From: Coriobacteriales bacterium
GTDB taxonomy: Bacteria > Actinomycetota > Coriobacteriia > Coriobacteriales > UBA8131
NCBI GenBank assembly: GCA_031288185.1
Contig: JAITRZ010000008.1
Location: 1-56,099, forward strand
Direction of reading: 5' to 3'
DNA length: 56,099 nt
The notes beneath the pieces were generated by a model. The model ran no database searches and was not told where the DNA came from. It saw only the letters and a list, made by a program, of their open reading frames with translations. A program made the position numbers and the translations under genes. Below are positions 1,995 to 10,404 of the stretch, piece by piece. Every line of letters starts with the position of its first letter. Positions within the stretch are counted from its first letter, which is position 1.

Positions 1995-3593
1995 TCAACC
2001 GGCCAAATCCCCAGCTGCGCGCAAACGCTCAAGCGTAGGGGAGCGGCCAATCAGGACAAGCGACTCAAAGAGTGGTGGGGAGACCATATTGCCGCAGACC
2101 GCGACGCGCAGAGCCTGAAAGAGCCGCCGAGGCTTGACATCCAATGTGGTGGACAGCGCGCGTAGTGCCTCTTCAAGAGACGCATGCTGCCAGGACAGCG
2201 ATGTGGGCGTAAGCAGCTGTTCTGCAGCGGCCAGCAAGGCTTTGGTGCCAACAGGGCGCAAACACTTCTCTACCGATGCTTCATCAAAGGGCACTGTGCC
2301 AGCGCAAAACAGATAGGCCGTTTTGGCGTTGGCTTCAGCCAGCAGTTGGATACGCTCGCTAATAAGGGGATAAACGGCATGGTACCAATGGGTATGCGCC
2401 TCAATGTCAGCACAGATAGCGTCTTGTATGGTTGTTGGGCTGGCCGTGAGTGGGGGGCGGCCATCAAACAGGCCCTTTTGCACACGTTCAGCGTCCTGAG
2501 AGATGATTATCTGGGCCTGTTTGGCACTGAGATGTCCACGCCACATCCCATCAAACAGCAGGTAGGGCTGCCAGGCGGCCAGGAAATCAGCCGCTCCTAA
2601 CTTTTTGAGGTAAGCCTGGTTCATCCATAGCAGTTTTTGGGGGTCAAAAACGGCTGGGTTTTTGGATATACGGGCCAGTGAGAAGTGTTGGGTAAGGGTG
2701 GCGGCATCAAACAGGGTAGTATGGTCATCCAATGACCAACCCAATAGGGCCAGATAGTTGAGAAGAGCCGCCGGTAATACGCCCAGGTGGCGGTAACTTT
2801 GCACGGCGGTGGCTCCCTGGCGCTTGGACAGACGGCGGCCGTCGCTTCCCAGGATCATCGACAGATGCGCAAAGCGTGGTGGCGTATAACCCAATGCCTC
2901 ATACAGCAACAGCTGTTTGGGAGTGTTGCTGAGGTGATCATCGCCGCGAATCACATGGCTGATACGCATCAGGGCATCATCAACGCAGGCCACAAAGTTG
3001 TAGGTAGGACTGCCGTCTGAGCGTACCAGTATGAAGTCATCCAACTGTTCAGTGGACACTTCGACAACGCCAAACACCGCATCCTCAAAACTCAGCGTGC
3101 GCGGCATCAGTGGCAATTTCAGGCGCCAGGTGTGCGCCTCACCCCCAGCCAGGCGCTCGCGGGCCTGTTGGGCAGGAATCTGACGGCAGCGACGGTCATA
3201 CCCAGCGGGTCGGTGGGCGGTCAGTGCCTCCCTGCGCTGCATCTCCCGTTGTTCCGGCGTACAAAAACAGGGATAGACCGCCTCTTGCTGCTTCAGACGC
3301 TCCAGTTCCCGCCGATAGATGTCCTGACGCTGTGACTGCATATACGGACCAAAGTCGCCGCCAACTTCCGGACCTTCATCCCAGTTGAGGCCCAGCCAGC
3401 GCAAGGCATCGAGAATCTGCTGCGTGTGAGCGGCCTGCGAGCGCTCCGGATCGGTGTCCTCAATGCGCAGGATCAGGCTTCCGGCATGCGCGCGGGCAAA
3501 CGCCCAGTTATAAAGGGCGGTACGAGCGCCGCCAATGTGCAGATTTCCGGTGGGCGAGGGCGCAAATCGCACCCGAACCGGTTGGTCAGACAT
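1995..3593 (-). CDS. gltX: Glutamate--tRNA ligase
   Basis: Class I aminoacyl-tRNA synthetase that charges tRNA-Glu with glutamate. The nucleotide-binding motif FAPSPTGNLHIGG lies near the N-terminus and the KMSKS-loop equivalent RRLSKRQG near residue 257. Cysteines in the PCFCTPEQ segment and the following YDRRC fit the zinc-binding insert of the family. Length (532 residues) is slightly above the usual 470-500. I prefer the ATG at 3593, which begins SDQPVRVRFAPSP as homologues do. A GTG at 3602 is also in frame; neither has a strong ribosome site. The gene is alone on this strand, with a 300-bp gap upstream. Confidence 0.95.
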   Translation of the reverse strand: MSDQPVRVRFAPSPTGNLHIGGARTALYNWAFARAHAGSLILRIEDTDPERSQAAHTQQILDALRWLGLNWDEGPEVGGDFGPYMQSQRQDIYRRELERLKQQEAVYPCFCTPEQREMQRREALTAHRPAGYDRRCRQIPAQQARERLAGGEAHTWRLKLPLMPRTLSFEDAVFGVVEVSTEQLDDFILVRSDGSPTYNFVACVDDALMRISHVIRGDDHLSNTPKQLLLYEALGYTPPRFAHLSMILGSDGRRLSKRQGATAVQSYRHLGVLPAALLNYLALLGWSLDDHTTLFDAATLTQHFSLARISKNPAVFDPQKLLWMNQAYLKKLGAADFLAAWQPYLLFDGMWRGHLSAKQAQIIISQDAERVQKGLFDGRPPLTASPTTIQDAICADIEAHTHWYHAVYPLISERIQLLAEANAKTAYLFCAGTVPFDEASVEKCLRPVGTKALLAAAEQLLTPTSLSWQHASLEEALRALSTTLDVKPRRLFQALRVAVCGNMVSPPLFESLVLIGRSPTLERLRAAGDLAG

Positions 3594-3602
3594 ACTGCTC
3601 AC

Positions 3603-3902: not shown

Positions 3903-5711
3903 TCAGGTCAACTCGCGCGGCCAGAGGGACGTCCTAACCGTACTCGCGCCAATGCCCAGGGAGCATTTCAAGGCCCTTGTTGCCTCACGGGATTTTGCGT
4001 CCTCACAGGCAAGGCCGCTAAGCATTACTCCCAGGCTGATACCGCCTTGAAAGCCCACAATCAGAGCGTGTTGGCCAGCGCGCACAAAGTTGCCGGCAAA
4101 CTGTCCGCCATAGCAGAACAGGCCGGTTAAGATGTTGTACTGAGACAGTGCTAACGGATCAAAGCGACCTGAGCGTAGTGCTGCCTGGGCAGTCTCCACG
4201 CTGCTAAACAACGGCCGGGCGCTGGCATCTTTGGGTACCGGCAGGGTGTTGAGGCTGGGAAACTGCCGGCAGTATTCCTGTACGATGTAGTTGTTGTGAC
4301 GGTGGGTATCAATCAGGCGGTCCCATTCATCGGCAGCCACCGCCTTACCCGCAAATACCCCGACGGTGCCATAGCCATCAACCGGTTTGATTATCCAATC
4401 ATTCTTGTTGGCTTTCAATTTGCTCAAGTCGATAGCGTCTTCTGATAGCCAGGTTGTATAGGGCACGGTGCGACGAACAAATTGTCGCTCGGTGGCGCTG
4501 AGGAAGACGGAGGTCTGGGGCAGGTGCAGCACGGTAAATATCGCTTTTGAGTGGGCGACCTGGCTGCGAAAACCGCCGATCATACACACCGCACCCTCGG
4601 CCACTGCCGCTACCAGAGCGGCTGCTCCATTAAGGTTCTGGGCGTTTGCGGCAGCCGTTTTGTCCACGCACGGGGACGCATGAAAGGAGGCGATCCGTCC
4701 GCTATCCCCACCGCTTCTTGTGGACGCAACCCCCCTATCGGGCGTAGCACTTGGATCAGATGCAACCCTTATATTGGACGCAAGGCTTGTGTCGGGCACA
4801 ATCCCCACATCGGGCGTAGCGCTTAAGCCGGGCAGGTTCAACAGGGCCGTCAGCACCTGATGGGGCAGCTGTTCTAACTCCGCGACGATTTCTGCAGTGA
4901 CTGCTCGCCGATAGACGGCATCAACCGGTTGCGGTCGCCCGTTGCTCGCGCCTGTGCCCCCGCTATCCTCGGCAAAAAGCCGTCCGTCTTGGTAATGGAG
5001 GCTCGCCATGTCCGCCACCAGGCAACGGATGCCGCAGCGGGTAAAACGACGTTGAAATTCCAGATGCTCATGCAGGGTAGCGCTTTGCCGGTAATCTACG
5101 ATGGCAACGGTAGGATTTGTCCGAGCTCCTGCGCTATGCTGGTAGAGGTTTAAGAAGCACTGCACCCAGTTGTCAAAGAGTTCCTGACCAGCCAGCGCAT
5201 GACGCTCGCTGAAACGTTGAAACGTCCGGCTTGTTGCGAGAGCATTGACAATTTCTCTATCCTCGTTCATAGCGCTGGAACCGTCAGTATTAAATTCGCA
5301 GAATTTGAAATTACCACTATGTTCATCAAAAAAGAGATCCAGGCGAGCCATCGGGATAGCACAATCATAACCGGTGGGCAGGCAGATAAGGCGCTCCAGC
5401 AGGTGCGAAAAGCCAAACAGCTGCCGGTAGGCGGGATCCTGCACATAGCGCGTTGTAATCTTATCCAGGATGGTGTAGGTGGTCGCTGCAATAGAGGCAT
5501 AGTACGCCAGCGTTGACCTATCATAGATTTTGGGCAAAAAACCCATACCTACCACCCGGTCATGGTACAGGGCGCTGGAAGCATTCAGATAGCTCTGGGC
5601 GGCAAGTCGGCCGTCTATATCACCCCCCAGAGAAAGAAAGTTTTCGCGGTACGCCGCTTCCAGGGCCACCATCTGAGACTTCTCGCGGTACGCCGCTTCC
5701 AGGGCCGTCAT
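3903..5711 (-). CDS. Glutathionylspermidine-synthase-like ATP-grasp ligase
   Basis: The central part (FKFCEFNTDGSSAMNEDRE) and the C-terminal WIIKPVDGYGTVGVF stretch resemble the pre-ATP-grasp and ATP-grasp parts of glutathionylspermidine-synthase-type ligases, which join a carboxyl to an amine using ATP. There is no amidase (CHAP) half. It follows gshA on the same strand, so a role in extending gamma-glutamylcysteine (glutathione or another thiol) is likely by context; the true substrate is unknown. The frame continues upstream into gshA, but homology-like sequence starts after a tandem repeat. ATGs at 5711 and 5672 each follow a gagaag ribosome site; 5711 gives 602 residues. A repeat-rich insertion coded at about 4680-4830 (PDVGIVPDTS-like) interrupts the domain. 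Family placement is moderate. Confidence 0.75.
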   Translation of the reverse strand: MTALEAAYREKSQMVALEAAYRENFLSLGGDIDGRLAAQSYLNASSALYHDRVVGMGFLPKIYDRSTLAYYASIAATTYTILDKITTRYVQDPAYRQLFGFSHLLERLICLPTGYDCAIPMARLDLFFDEHSGNFKFCEFNTDGSSAMNEDREIVNALATSRTFQRFSERHALAGQELFDNWVQCFLNLYQHSAGARTNPTVAIVDYRQSATLHEHLEFQRRFTRCGIRCLVADMASLHYQDGRLFAEDSGGTGASNGRPQPVDAVYRRAVTAEIVAELEQLPHQVLTALLNLPGLSATPDVGIVPDTSLASNIRVASDPSATPDRGVASTRSGGDSGRIASFHASPCVDKTAAANAQNLNGAAALVAAVAEGAVCMIGGFRSQVAHSKAIFTVLHLPQTSVFLSATERQFVRRTVPYTTWLSEDAIDLSKLKANKNDWIIKPVDGYGTVGVFAGKAVAADEWDRLIDTHRHNNYIVQEYCRQFPSLNTLPVPKDASARPLFSSVETAQAALRSGRFDPLALSQYNILTGLFCYGGQFAGNFVRAGQHALIVGFQGGISLGVMLSGLACEDAKSREATRALKCSLGIGASTVRTSLWPRELT

Positions 5712-5782
5712 CTGAGACTTCTCGCAGTATGCCAGCACCAGAGACTTTTCGCGGTACGCCGCTTCCGGGCCATCATATGAGG
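5641..5782 (-). repeat. 39-bp tandem repeat at the gshA / ATP-grasp junction
   Basis: Copies lie at 5641-5679, 5680-5718, a shortened 5719-5745, and 5746-5782. Each encodes an ALEAAYREKSQM-like peptide in the downstream frame. Two copies contain a ribosome-site-like gagaag six bases before an ATG. The last copy spans the gshA stop at 5773-5775. Confidence 0.9.
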
Positions 5783-7107
5783 TGCAGCAAGGTCTGGCGG
5801 CTGGTAATGAGGTCAGCCAGAGGGCGCAGATAGTGCCGTTCGTTGGCTGAAAGACCGTCCTGGGCCCAGCGGAGCAGTTCATCCAGCCACTGCGAGGCTG
5901 GCCTCCGGTACACAAGGGCCTGATAGCCATGCATGCGCAACGCTGTTTTGGCAAAGGCAACCTGCGCACTGTCCATGAATTCAAAGCGCTTCTCATAATA
6001 GGAAAGGGCTGCAGGGTTATAAAAGACCCCCTTGATCAACGCGACTAGAGCCAGCGTGTAGGTGAGCGGCATGGCATCAGCCTGGCGTATCTCAACGTAG
6101 GATTTGAGGCGCGTATCGTAAAAAAACATCGACAGGATATGCAAAATGGCCGCCTCGCTCAGGTCTGCGTCAGGGAGCAGGTTGGCAAAACTGCAAAACC
6201 CTCGGTAGGCAGGTTCCTCGTTGGACAGCGCAGGAGTAAAAATGGCCGGGGCTCGCAGCAGGTCTGCGGCATAACGCGCAAAACCAAAATCCTCATCAAA
6301 AGTTCCCGGTGCCACCAGGCTGCGCTCTGGGTCGGTGTCGTCCCAACAAACCATGCGCGCCATACGGGCCGGCATCGCCTGCGCCTTGTCAGGGGATAGG
6401 GGATGGTGAGCGTGGCCCTTTGCCACCTGCCCCACCGCCTGACCCTCAAACACCGGCGTATTATCCGTCACAAAGGCCAAAAGGGGCCCCAGGGCCGTGG
6501 CAACGCGCATCTTTAATACGGCATCGGCCTCACTAAAATAGTCCACAGAAATCTGGGTTGAAGCTGTGGCTCGCATCATACAGATGCCGTGATTACCGGT
6601 TTGGGCAAAGTGCTTGTCCATAAAAAAGTAGCGCTGCTTGGGTAAAAGCGTCAGGTCGCGCGCCCGGGCGCTGGGGTGATAGCCAAAGGTCGCAATCTCC
6701 AGCCCCAGGGGCTCCAGCACCGCGTCCAATTCATCACGAAACCGCCGGTAGTATTCCTCCAGTTCTGCAATCTGGCGCAGCGGTCCCACGCTTACCTCCA
6801 GCTGGCTGCCGGGTTCCAACGTAATGACGGTTTTGTCTCGCGCCAGGCCAAACAGATGCACCTTTGCGTCAGTGCCCACTTCCTGTATCTGTTGCGTATA
6901 GTATGGTGCCAACGCGCGTAAAACCTGCTCCACCCCTGGCTGTCCCTCAGTTGCTGATGCATAGGGCACAGCCGCGTGCTCGCCCTTTGTTACCACAAAA
7001 TGTTCCAGCTCAAAACCCAGGCTGTCAGTGGGCTGCGCGCGCGCCGCCGCATCCAAGTAGGAAGCAATGCTGTGGGCGGCCTTGCTTTGTTCCCATAAAA
7101 GTTCCAT
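5773..7107 (-). CDS. gshA: Glutamate--cysteine ligase (GCS2-type)
   Basis: Predicted to make gamma-glutamylcysteine from glutamate, cysteine and ATP. At 444 residues it fits the plant/actinobacterial GCS2 family (GshA/EgtA-like). Features seen: GFELEHFV near the N-terminus (metal/glutamate site), LEPGSQLEVS, and MMRATASTQISVDY in mid-protein. The start ATG at 7107 lies seven bases after a TACAAT box, with no ribosome site between, which suggests a leaderless message. The ATP-grasp gene follows immediately, its coding overlapping or abutting the stop. No canonical gshB is seen in the window. EgtA of ergothioneine synthesis is an alternative name, but no egtB/D neighbours are present. Confidence 0.88.
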   Translation of the reverse strand: MELLWEQSKAAHSIASYLDAAARAQPTDSLGFELEHFVVTKGEHAAVPYASATEGQPGVEQVLRALAPYYTQQIQEVGTDAKVHLFGLARDKTVITLEPGSQLEVSVGPLRQIAELEEYYRRFRDELDAVLEPLGLEIATFGYHPSARARDLTLLPKQRYFFMDKHFAQTGNHGICMMRATASTQISVDYFSEADAVLKMRVATALGPLLAFVTDNTPVFEGQAVGQVAKGHAHHPLSPDKAQAMPARMARMVCWDDTDPERSLVAPGTFDEDFGFARYAADLLRAPAIFTPALSNEEPAYRGFCSFANLLPDADLSEAAILHILSMFFYDTRLKSYVEIRQADAMPLTYTLALVALIKGVFYNPAALSYYEKRFEFMDSAQVAFAKTALRMHGYQALVYRRPASQWLDELLRWAQDGLSANERHYLRPLADLITSRQTLLHLI

Positions 7108-7120: not shown

Positions 7121-7182
7121 GCGCATTGTGCGCTACCAGCTTGTCACTTTTGGATATAGGCTTTCTAGGCATTATGGTTTTC

Positions 7183-7236
7183 CGAACTGTGCCGGTTTCC
7201 CAAACTGTGTCGGTTTTTCGAACGGTGTTTTGGTGG
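7183..7236. repeat. 18-bp tandem repeat upstream of metK
   Basis: Three adjacent imperfect copies (7183-7200, 7201-7218, 7219-7236) share the core aactgtgYcggttt; the third is the most degenerate. It sits in the divergent gshA-metK promoter region, 30 bases before the metK ribosome site. No SAM riboswitch is seen. Confidence 0.7.
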
Positions 7237-7269: not shown

Positions 7270-8574
7270 ATGCCCCCTTCTCCTCAACAGAGCTCCCACG
7301 CTGCTTCAGCCGGCTCTTCAACATTGGCCAACTCCCCTGTTTTTACCTCTGAAAGCGTTACCGAAGGCCATCCGGATAAGGTCTGTGACCAGATATCTGA
7401 TGCTATTTTAGATGAAATCCTTACGCAGGAACTGCACCTGGAGGCCAGCGGGTACACAACGCCAGATGGCCACAAAACCAGGGCCAGCGACGCACGGGTG
7501 GCCTGTGAGACAATGGTCACAGAGGGACAGGTGTTTCTGGCTGGCGAAATTCGCACGGCGGCCTACGTGGACATCGATAAGCTGGTGCGCACTGTTGTGC
7601 GTGACATTGGTTATCATGATCCGGATTCTGGCTTTCACTACAAATCTATTGGCATTACCAATTCCATCCATGAGCAAAGTCATGACATCGCCCGTGGGGT
7701 GGATGCCTCCTATGAACACCAGCATGGCGTTGCTATTGCCGACCCCTTTGAAATGATCGGAGCTGGCGACCAAGGCATGGTTTTTGGTTTTGCCTGCACG
7801 GAGACGGACACCCTGATGCCCATGCCCCTTTACCTGGCACAGCGTCTGGCCGAGCGCCTGGCCCTGGTGCGCAAAGAGGGTATTTTGGAATACCTGCGTC
7901 CTGATGGCAAGACCCAGGTTAGCGTGCGGTATCAGGACGGACGGCCGCAAAACATCACCACGGTGCTGATCTCTAGCCAGCATCAGGATCTTCCCTTCAT
8001 TGAGAGTGAGCTGCCGGCGGCGCTGACCAAACACGTACTGCGTCCGGTTCTGGACAGCGTGGGCCTGGATTGGAAAGACGCTCAGATACATGTTAATCCG
8101 ACTGGCCGCTTTGTACTGGGCGGCCCAGCGGCGGACACGGGTTTAACGGGACGCAAAATAATTGTGGACAGCTACGGCGGTTATGCCCGCCACGGCGGCG
8201 GAGCCTTTTCTGGCAAGGACTGCACCAAGGTAGATCGCTCGGCGGCTTACGCAGCCCGCTGGGTGGCAAAAAACATTGTCGCCAGTGGCCTGGCGCTGCG
8301 TGCAGAGGTGCAGATAGCCTATGGCATTGGCATAGCTGAGCCGCTGTCGCTTTTAGTTGAATGCTTTAACACAAATACCGTTGCCCCTGAGCGTATCACC
8401 GCTGCTGTGCGCGCTGTGTTTGATCTGCGGCCGGCGGCCATCATCAGCGAGCTTAAATTGCTCCGTCCTATCTTTCGCCAAACTGCCACATATGGGCACT
8501 TCGGCCGCGCGTTGCCAGACTTCACCTGGGAACAAACGGATCGTACTGACGCGCTGCTGGCTGCAGTGCAGTGA
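7270..8574 (+). CDS. metK: S-adenosylmethionine synthetase
   Basis: Forms SAM from methionine and ATP; cytoplasmic homotetramer in the family. Conserved motifs: [16 protein letters not shown] near residue 30, [12 protein letters not shown] near 165, and the glycine-rich [15 protein letters not shown] near 300. At 434 residues it carries an extra ~20-residue Ser/Ala-rich N-terminus beyond the usual start. The ATG at 7270 follows a good ribosome site (aaaggcagg). Single gene, divergent from gshA. Confidence 0.97.
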
Positions 8575-8683: not shown

Positions 8684-8759
8684 GCCAACGTAGCTCAGCT
8701 GGTAGAGCAGCGCACTCGTAATGCGCAGGCCAGGGGTTCGAGTCCCCTCGTTGGCTCCA
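8684..8759 (+). tRNA. tRNA-Thr (CGT anticodon)
   Basis: The full cloverleaf can be drawn: acceptor gccaacg/cgttggc, D arm gctc...gagc, anticodon stem gcgca/tgcgc with loop ctcgtaa (anticodon CGT), T arm gggg-ttcgagt-cccc. The CCA end is encoded. Reads ACG codons. The accessory patch begins directly downstream. Confidence 0.97.
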
Positions 8760-9197: not shown

Positions 9198-10404
9198 ATT
9201 AAGTGATATAATCGTTCCTGTCATCTATGGAGAGAGTATGGAGAAAGGAGTGGTTAGTATGAAACCCAAGTACTATCCGGTAGTCTTGGACAAAGAGGAC
9301 AGGAAGGCCATTGAGGCTGTGGCCAACGCAAACGGCCACAGCGAACAGATGAGAATGAGGGCAAGGATACTTCTGGCCTTAGACGAAAGCGACGGCGCAT
9401 CCAAAAGCCAGTCAGACATTGCCGATGTCTTAAAAACGTCCACATCAACCATCTACAAAACGTCTAAGGCATTTCATGACAAAGGCACCAAAGGCGCACT
9501 GACACGCAAGAAGCGCGCGGTGCCACCGGTGCTGTCCAAAATAGATGGGCTGGTGGAGGCCCGTGTGATAGCTATGGCCTGCTCCAAGGCACCCGGCGGT
9601 CATGCCCGCTGGACGCTTCGCCTTTTGGAGACCAAGGTCGCCGAGGCTGACGATCTACCCAACCTGTCTGACAACACGATCGCTCGCCTCTTAAAAAAAC
9701 GCCGCTTAAGCCTCACTTAAGTAAGTATTGGTGCATCCCACCTGAGCACACCTGTGTGTTCGCCGCCGCCATGGAAGATGTGTTGGAGGTCTATCGCAGG
9801 CCCTATGATAAGGCGCGACCGGTGGTTTGCATGGATGAAAAGCCCTATCAGCTGCTTTCGGATGCCCGGGACACGATAGCGATGAGCGGGACAAACCCCG
9901 TGCGCAAGCAGGACTACGAGTATGTTCGCCACGGCACCTGCTCGATATTTGTCTGGGCAGAACCTTTGGCCGCGCGACGGGCGGCAACGGCACTTGAAAG
10001 GCGTACCCGCAAGAACTGGGCCCATCAGGTCAAAGAACTCTTAGAAACCCACTACCCCGATGCGGAAAAGGTCGTACTTGTGATGGACAACCTCAACACC
10101 CATAACATCGCCTCGCTTTAAGGGGCATTCCCTCCTGATGAGGCCATGGCCTTGTCAAAGAGACTCGAGTGCCACTACACGCCCAAACATGGCAGCTGGC
10201 TTAACATCGCAGAGATAGAACTGTCGGTGATGGCAAGACAGTGTCTTAGCCGAAGGGTTGCTACGCTTGATGAGCTGAACTTTGAGCTGGATGCCTGGCA
10301 AGCAGACAGAAACGCCGATGGCGGTACCGGCTCTGGCAGTTCACCACCGAGGACGCTAGGGTACGTCTTCGTAGGCTATATCCTGTTATTTAATTGACGC
10401 ATAC
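9183..10404 (+). mobile_element. IS630-family insertion sequence (1222 bp)
   Basis: Terminal inverted repeats begin GTATGCGTCAGTTAAA on the left and, read inward, GTATGCGTCAATTAAA on the right (one mismatch). Both ends are flanked by TA (9181-9182 and 10405-10406), the target duplication of the IS630/Tc1-mariner superfamily. The only gene inside is a broken transposase. It inserted near the end of the small gene starting at 9009. Confidence 0.92.
9259..10393 (+). pseudogene. IS630-family transposase, disabled by two frameshifts and a stop
   Basis: Part 1 (to 9720) holds the helix-turn-helix region (SQSDIADVLKTSTSTIYKTS). A one-base loss near 9706-9712 ends it early; the next frame reads [12 protein letters not shown] and goes on. 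Part 2 carries the first catalytic Asp ([11 protein letters not shown]) and the second ([11 protein letters not shown]), then an in-frame TAA at 10119-10121 where a sense codon is expected before GAFPPDEA. Part 3 has the catalytic Glu (GSWLNIAEIELS), then shifts frame near 10316-10340 to finish FTTEDARVRLRRLYPVI with a stop at 10391. The ATG at 9259 has an aggag site; an ATG at 9238 is also possible. Confidence 0.92.

Follow-up and report, generated by a model that had tools for sequence, protein, structure and literature searches.

Gene pair and question

What would a bacterium make of gamma-glutamylcysteine (gamma-Glu-Cys) when its genome carries a glutamate-cysteine ligase (GCL) and an ATP-grasp ligase side by side, and no gshB? 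The question is raised by contig JAITRZ010000008.1 of a Coriobacteriales bacterium (assembly GCA_031288185.1), which was analyzed over its whole stretch of 56,099 nucleotides (the window) and which carries two consecutive genes on its reverse strand:

5773..7107, minus strand: GCS2-type GCL, predicted to convert Glu + Cys + ATP to gamma-Glu-Cys (Pfam GCS2, plant GCL profile and fold)
3903..5711, start uncertain, minus strand: circularly permuted ATP-grasp ligase, predicted to act on gamma-Glu-Cys + X + ATP (open reading frame [ORF] and predicted fold)

A preliminary description of this DNA had recognized a GCS2-type ligase followed by an ATP-grasp protein without an amidase domain. Both ORFs exist, and the second has no amidase match. 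We predict that the two genes probably encode both enzymes of a full two-step route to a glutathione-type tripeptide thiol.

Predicted plant-type glutamate-cysteine ligase

The first gene encodes a protein of 444 amino acids that scored 96.5 bits with Pfam GCS2 (PF04107; cut-off, 21). A GCL profile constructed from 22 relatives (A2) matched the plant GCL structures 2gwc and 6gmo over the full length, with E-values of approximately 1e−73 to 1e−74. The predicted fold, with a predicted local distance difference test score (pLDDT) of 92.7, matched the plant GCL 2gwc with Z 45.5 and a root-mean-square deviation (rmsd) of 2.1 over 403 aligned residues, as against Z 33.5 for YbdK and Z 18.6 for E. 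coli GshA. Among the NCBIfam models, the plant GCL model TIGR01436 was closer (E-value, 3e−48) than EgtA (1e−24) or YbdK (2e−8), and the protein scored below every NCBIfam equivalog cut-off (TIGR01436, 164 bits versus 463). Judged by its sequence and modeled structure, the product is a GCS2 ligase of the plant GCL type, with that activity as its predicted function.

An ATP-grasp ligase outside the curated families

No Pfam or NCBIfam model attained its cut-off with the ATP-grasp protein. CP_ATPgrasp_2 (PF14403) gave 29.5–30.1 bits against a cut-off of 32, and CP_ATPgrasp_1 gave 21.5 against 23.1; a fused relative (L025) scored 39.2 bits with CP_ATPgrasp_2, against the same cut-off of 32. The bacterial GshB family (PF02955) scored 15.8 bits (cut-off, 23), and PF03738 (GSP_synth), which matched three of the 26 members of the ATP-grasp alignment (best E-value, 1e−7), had no match in the window's protein even at an E-value of 0.1. 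A PDB sequence search with the single protein returned no match. When the PDB was searched with a profile, the best sequence match was Cp1B (E-value, 1e−4), and the catalytic stretch of trypanothione synthetase (TryS) also aligned. In single pairwise comparisons, the family profile matched E. coli glutathionylspermidine synthetase (Gss) across its whole synthetase domain (E-value, 7e−6; 381 columns), and YgiC plus Gss with an E-value of 3e−6 (371 columns).

The predicted structure (pLDDT 86.2) had 3n6x as its top Foldseek match. Its fold scores were nearly tied among YgiC (Z 25.7, rmsd 3.4, 358 residues aligned), Gss (2io8; Z 25.0, rmsd 3.6, 379 aligned), soybean homoglutathione synthetase (3kal; Z 24.9, rmsd 3.8, 415 aligned), and human glutathione synthetase (GS) (2hgs; Z 24.6, rmsd 3.8, 419 aligned), and bacterial GshB (E. 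coli) reached only Z 9.3. By predicted fold, the protein thus groups with eukaryotic GS, YgiC/YjfC, and Gss rather than with bacterial GshB. The label "glutathionylspermidine synthase type" given in the preliminary description is apt at the level of fold and of remote profile matches, but the fold is equally common to eukaryotic GS, and the substrate-loop (S-loop) arginine is that of GS, unlike Gss and YgiC. The second-step enzyme appears to represent an undescribed family.

Catalytic and substrate-site motifs

The ATP-grasp alignment comprised 101 ORFs, reduced to 94 by dropping seven duplicate loci, and conservation was counted over 95 rows. Residue numbers are counted from position 5675, and correspondences with known enzymes follow motif order and spacing, not superposed coordinates. 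The following features were assigned:

5274..5345, minus strand: catalytic motif R111-x-D113 ... E127-x-N129-x-D131 ... S133-S134 (alignment)
4896..4913, minus strand: S-loop Y255-R-R257-A-V-T (compare human GS, Y-F-R267-D-G-Y)
4347..4388, minus strand: ATP-lid motif K430-P-x-x-x-Y435 ... G443 (K430 in 93/95 rows, P431 in 95/95, Y435 in 94/95, and G443 in 95/95)
4029..4082, minus strand: C-terminal R532 and A-loop GG-I-S-L-G, likely acceptor site (alignment)
4656..4811, minus strand: disordered insert, residues 289–340 (pLDDT below 50; missing from most relatives)

R111 and D113 occur in all 95 rows, and E127 and N129 in 93 each. The same catalytic motif is present in TryS, Gss, and YgiC, in human GS (PMC2845819), and in Cp1B (PMC12568646), where alanine mutants of the equivalent residues R139, D141, E163, and N165 were dead or weak, with most or all of the activity gone. 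The human GS residues R125/D127, E144/N146, R267, and R450 would correspond to R111, D113, E127, N129, R257, and R532. PMC2845819 describes for GS that Arg267 of the human S-loop holds the glutamyl carboxylate, that Arg125 and Ser149 hold the cysteine part, and that Arg450 and the A-loop hold the glycine carboxylate. R257 is conserved in 94/95 rows (family pattern, Y/W-R-R257), whereas the S-loop counterparts are VWKTWAWE in Gss and LFKLYPWE in YgiC, with T and L, respectively, at the position of R257. R532 is present in all 92 rows that are long enough to include it. In the window's clade, the A-loop is mostly GG-I/V-T/S-L/V-G/P, comparable to GGVAAG in human and GGVLPG in soybean; the GG-x-x-x-G pattern is absent in the Clostridia and in most Eggerthellaceae, which have other, clade-specific loops. 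Because the S-loop and C-terminal arginines resemble those of GS, an amino acid acceptor is favored over a polyamine; because the A-loop is altered, other small amino acids are possible besides glycine, the default.

Co-occurrence, fusion, and exchange of the GCL

The genome scan found 345 relatives, of which 80 were kept. Among 60 Coriobacteriales relatives, the ATP-grasp gene was found in 46 and the GCL gene in 42: both were present in 42 genomes, the ATP-grasp gene alone in four, the GCL gene alone in none, and neither in 14 (Fisher p, 2e−10), so that a GCL accompanied 42/46 ATP-grasp genomes and 0/14 of the others. Where both occur, the two genes were adjacent in 28/42 genomes (≤600 bases; in one of these, G027, they lie on opposite strands), 3 kb apart in one, and far apart or on separate contigs in 13. 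In the Lachnospirales, the ATP-grasp gene was found in 13/196 genomes. A GCS2 enzyme was present in 12 of these 13, compared with 2 of 62 genomes tested among the 183 that lack the ATP-grasp gene, and the 13th carries an E. coli-type GCL (PF04262). In a sample of the phylum, 34/296 genomes gave ATP-grasp matches; those with E-values below 1e−100 (17 genomes) all belong to the same order, and the remaining matches look like other permuted ATP-grasps.

The GCL and ATP-grasp genes are separate in the window, and they are fused, GCL first, at five distinct loci (L058, L068, L117, L027, and L098). On the phylogenetic tree, five changes of fusion state, in which gain and loss are indistinguishable, are forced by well-supported branches in five separated lineages. 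Furthermore, the type of GCL has been exchanged. Forty of the kept loci had no GCL in the fetched DNA, and of the 30 such genomes tested, 20 carry a GCS2 enzyme elsewhere. A stand-alone PF04262 GCL was found in nine of the ten ATP-grasp genomes without an A2-type GCS2 enzyme, all nine being Clostridia, compared with none of ten tested genomes with GCS2. PF04262 is not universal in the Lachnospirales, since only 14/62 genomes without the ATP-grasp gene have it. Eight of the nine exchanged genomes fall in one clade and the ninth (L089) in another; therefore, a minimum of two swaps is counted. Moreover, both ATP-grasps that have lost Glu127 and Asn129 belong to genomes in which no GCL was detected (G044 and G052). 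These results indicate that the pairing of GCL and ATP-grasp is functional, not accidental. Because two different GCL families supply the ATP-grasp genomes, we argue that the shared substrate is gamma-Glu-Cys.

Several loci in the survey have further features. Four PF02955 matches over the cut-off in the exchanged genomes, examined as candidate GshB proteins, all proved to be of the RimK family. RimK-family ATP-grasp proteins occur at L158–L161 in four Lachnospiraceae genomes, with a Mur/folyl-ligase-like neighbor in three, as judged from sequence. In a Clostridiales metagenome-assembled genome (MAG), a divergent protein of 460 amino acids (L151:94–2709; weak TIGR01436 match, E-value 2e−11) directly precedes the PF04262 GCL. 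The ATP-grasp protein of an Atopobiaceae-type genome (L028:4863–7748, minus strand) has an N-terminal GDSL/SGNH hydrolase domain (PF13472; E-value, 9e−11), and G570 has an open frame of similar length. Tandem ATP-grasp copies of 492 and 487 amino acids are found in an Eggerthellaceae MAG (L072:5989–8920), and a second copy is also present in G056 and G473.

Absence of known thiol-pathway genes

The window's genome (1.81 Mb, 88.9% complete) has no match to PF02955 (GshB) or to PF04262 (E. coli-type GshA), and the claim that it lacks gshB therefore holds. MshC did not exceed its cut-off in any of the 60 relatives, this genome included. The pair thus occurs in a high-GC Gram-positive bacterium without mycothiol genes; the preliminary description had called it notable because such bacteria usually use mycothiol. 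These absences are soft, because most of the genomes are incomplete MAGs. A mycothiol pathway was considered and rejected: sub-threshold MshC matches also appear in all 14 control genomes, and we take them to be CysRS.

Proposed pathway and alternative readings

In the proposed pathway, the plant-type GCL would link the gamma-carboxylate of glutamate to cysteine, yielding gamma-Glu-Cys. The ATP-grasp enzyme would then phosphorylate the cysteine carboxylate of gamma-Glu-Cys to an acyl phosphate, which would be attacked by a small amino acid. Glycine is the likeliest candidate and would give glutathione; otherwise, the product would be a close analogue. The permuted ATP-grasp would thus stand in for GshB, its remote relative only, and the product may have a redox role. 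The preliminary description suggested that the second enzyme could add glycine or another amine to gamma-Glu-Cys; a second amide bond on gamma-Glu-Cys is the best reading of our data as well, whereas the option of "another amine" has the lower probability. That the product is glutathione itself is a serious prospect, if somewhat short of probable. A rather unlikely outcome is gamma-Glu-Cys-X, with X an amino acid other than glycine, a so far undescribed low-molecular-weight thiol of the Coriobacteriales and some gut Clostridia; as part of this same outcome, X would vary with the clade-specific acceptor loops and so differ among Coriobacteriales of the termite-gut type, Eggerthellaceae, and Clostridia.

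Several observations weigh against this proposal. The co-occurrence counts (Coriobacteriales, Lachnospirales, and the 30-genome test) ignore shared ancestry. Four of the 46 Coriobacteriales ATP-grasp genomes have no detected GCL: in G009 the gene is truncated at a contig edge, in G014 (89% complete) the motif is intact, and in G044 and G052 the open frames (L034:4851–6329 and L035:4599–6401) have Glu127, Asn129, and Lys430 replaced, these ATP-grasps being decayed or repurposed. Olsenella KH3B4 (L087) has an intact catalytic motif and neither type of GCL. Among neighboring gene clusters judged by eye, no recurring redox, transport, or regulatory gene bearing on a thiol pathway was found beside the pair or the unlinked GCLs. 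The distribution of glutathione peroxidase-type (GSHPx) genes among the 60 relatives scanned does not parallel that of the pair, and the window's genome has none; as a marker of thiol use, glutathione peroxidase was set aside as uninformative, being found in 21/60 genomes, several of them without the pair. Finally, the A-loop, which likely binds the acceptor, varies across the family, and the product may therefore differ by clade.

Three other functions of the two proteins were weighed against the tripeptide thiol pathway. In the first, the acceptor would be a polyamine, for example spermidine, which the ATP-grasp would couple to gamma-Glu-Cys or to imported glutathione in the manner of Gss and YgiC/YjfC. 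Both YgiC and Gss rank with the top fold matches, and the profile aligns with both over the full length; YgiC/YjfC are peptide-spermidine ligases, as cited in PMC12568646 and as annotated, and the GG..G A-loop is missing in the Eggerthellaceae and Clostridia members. We nevertheless consider this improbable, given the GS-type Arg257 in place of the T of Gss or the L of YgiC, the lack of an amidase partner, and the GS-like A-loop in the window's own clade.

It is more improbable still that the GCS2 enzyme ligates glutamate to a partner other than cysteine, giving a gamma-glutamyl compound without a thiol. The GCS2 superfamily does have non-GCL members, such as YbdK, and no equivalog cut-off was reached, but plant GCL is far closer in both fold and profile scores, and an E. 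coli-type GCL replaces the GCS2 enzyme in nine genomes. We give as little credence to the reading that the substrate of the ATP-grasp is some unrelated peptide or amino acid, with shared regulation or inherited gene order alone tying the enzyme to the GCL. In favor of this reading, the two genes lie apart in 13 genomes, and metK and gltX are likewise inherited neighbors (a MetK-like cluster in 20/93 and a GltX-like cluster in 35/93 non-duplicate loci, the clusters having been judged by eye from their sequences); however, the co-occurrence holds without adjacency, and the five fusions and the change of GCL type also speak against it.

Gene junction and neighborhood

The second ORF lies directly downstream of the GCS2 gene on the same strand and, in its frame, overlaps the end of that gene. 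As mechanically called, it spans 3903–5996 (697 amino acids), with a start that falls inside the GCL gene. The in-frame ATGs at 5711 and 5672, both of which come after the GCL stop, are likelier starts than 5996; the exact start is uncertain because a tandem repeat with a 39-bp unit occupies this junction. The neighboring features are as follows:

5644..5733, minus strand: tandem repeat at the gene junction, 39-bp unit, 2.3 copies (repeat scan)
7270..8574, plus strand: metK, divergent, upstream of the GCL gene (TIGR01034 over cut-off)
1995..3602, minus strand: gltX, downstream of the ATP-grasp gene (TIGR00464 over cut-off)

Another tandem repeat (7176–7228; 18-bp unit, 2.9 copies) lies between metK and the GCL gene. 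A tRNA was found at 8684–8756; promoter, terminator, and Rfam scans of the window were otherwise uninformative. A transposase-like gene at 9238–10121 (plus strand), in two ORFs, is apparently broken and was judged IS630-like from its sequence.

Significance and comparison with known systems

Among the lineages that bear the pair are genera cultured from the human gut (Gordonibacter, Adlercreutzia, Collinsella, Roseburia-like strains, and [Clostridium] symbiosum). Because the second-step enzyme fits no curated family, annotation based on GshB or GshF would call these lineages incapable of glutathione synthesis. If the prediction is true, many gut anaerobes have a glutathione-type thiol of their own, a point of relevance to how the gut handles xenobiotics and sulfur and to oxygen tolerance, and an extra evolutionary route would exist, in which a GCL and a synthetase of families other than those of GshF were fused anew. 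Neither the second-step family, nor its combination with a GCL of plant type in Coriobacteriales or Clostridia, nor the fused form was found in the Creative Commons-licensed literature searched; an earlier prediction elsewhere is possible.

Glutathione synthesis in two steps, by separate or by fused enzymes, is textbook knowledge. E. coli GshA and GshB likewise constitute a GCL followed by an ATP-grasp ligase, encoded by separate genes, but here the GCL belongs to the plant GCS2 type and the ATP-grasp is permuted, with little fold similarity to GshB. Bifunctional GshF has the same GCL-then-ATP-grasp order as the five fused relatives, although both halves here belong to different families than those of GshF. 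In the two Clostridia that were inspected (L146 and L151), the ATP-grasp is accompanied by a stand-alone PF04262 protein whose match to GshF is confined to the GCL half (approximately positions 9–400 of the 756-position model). EgtA, of ergothioneine synthesis, is also an actinobacterial GCS2-type GCL, but the window's GCL scores 87 bits with its model (TIGR03444) against a cut-off of 370.8, and the partner genes are not the same. Cp1B of the E-64 pathway joins a carboxylate to amino acids, as proposed here, but it is fungal, uses trans-epoxysuccinate, and has no GCL partner. The synthetase domain of Gss, YgiC, and YjfC, the top fold matches and remote full-length profile matches, differ from the window's ATP-grasp, which has no amidase, a different S-loop, and a GCL partner. 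Eukaryotic glutathione and homoglutathione synthetases share its fold, permutation, RxD...ExN motif, S-loop arginine, and C-terminal arginine, but the window's protein has no Pfam match to that family, is only approximately 14% identical, and belongs to a family whose A-loop residues vary by clade.

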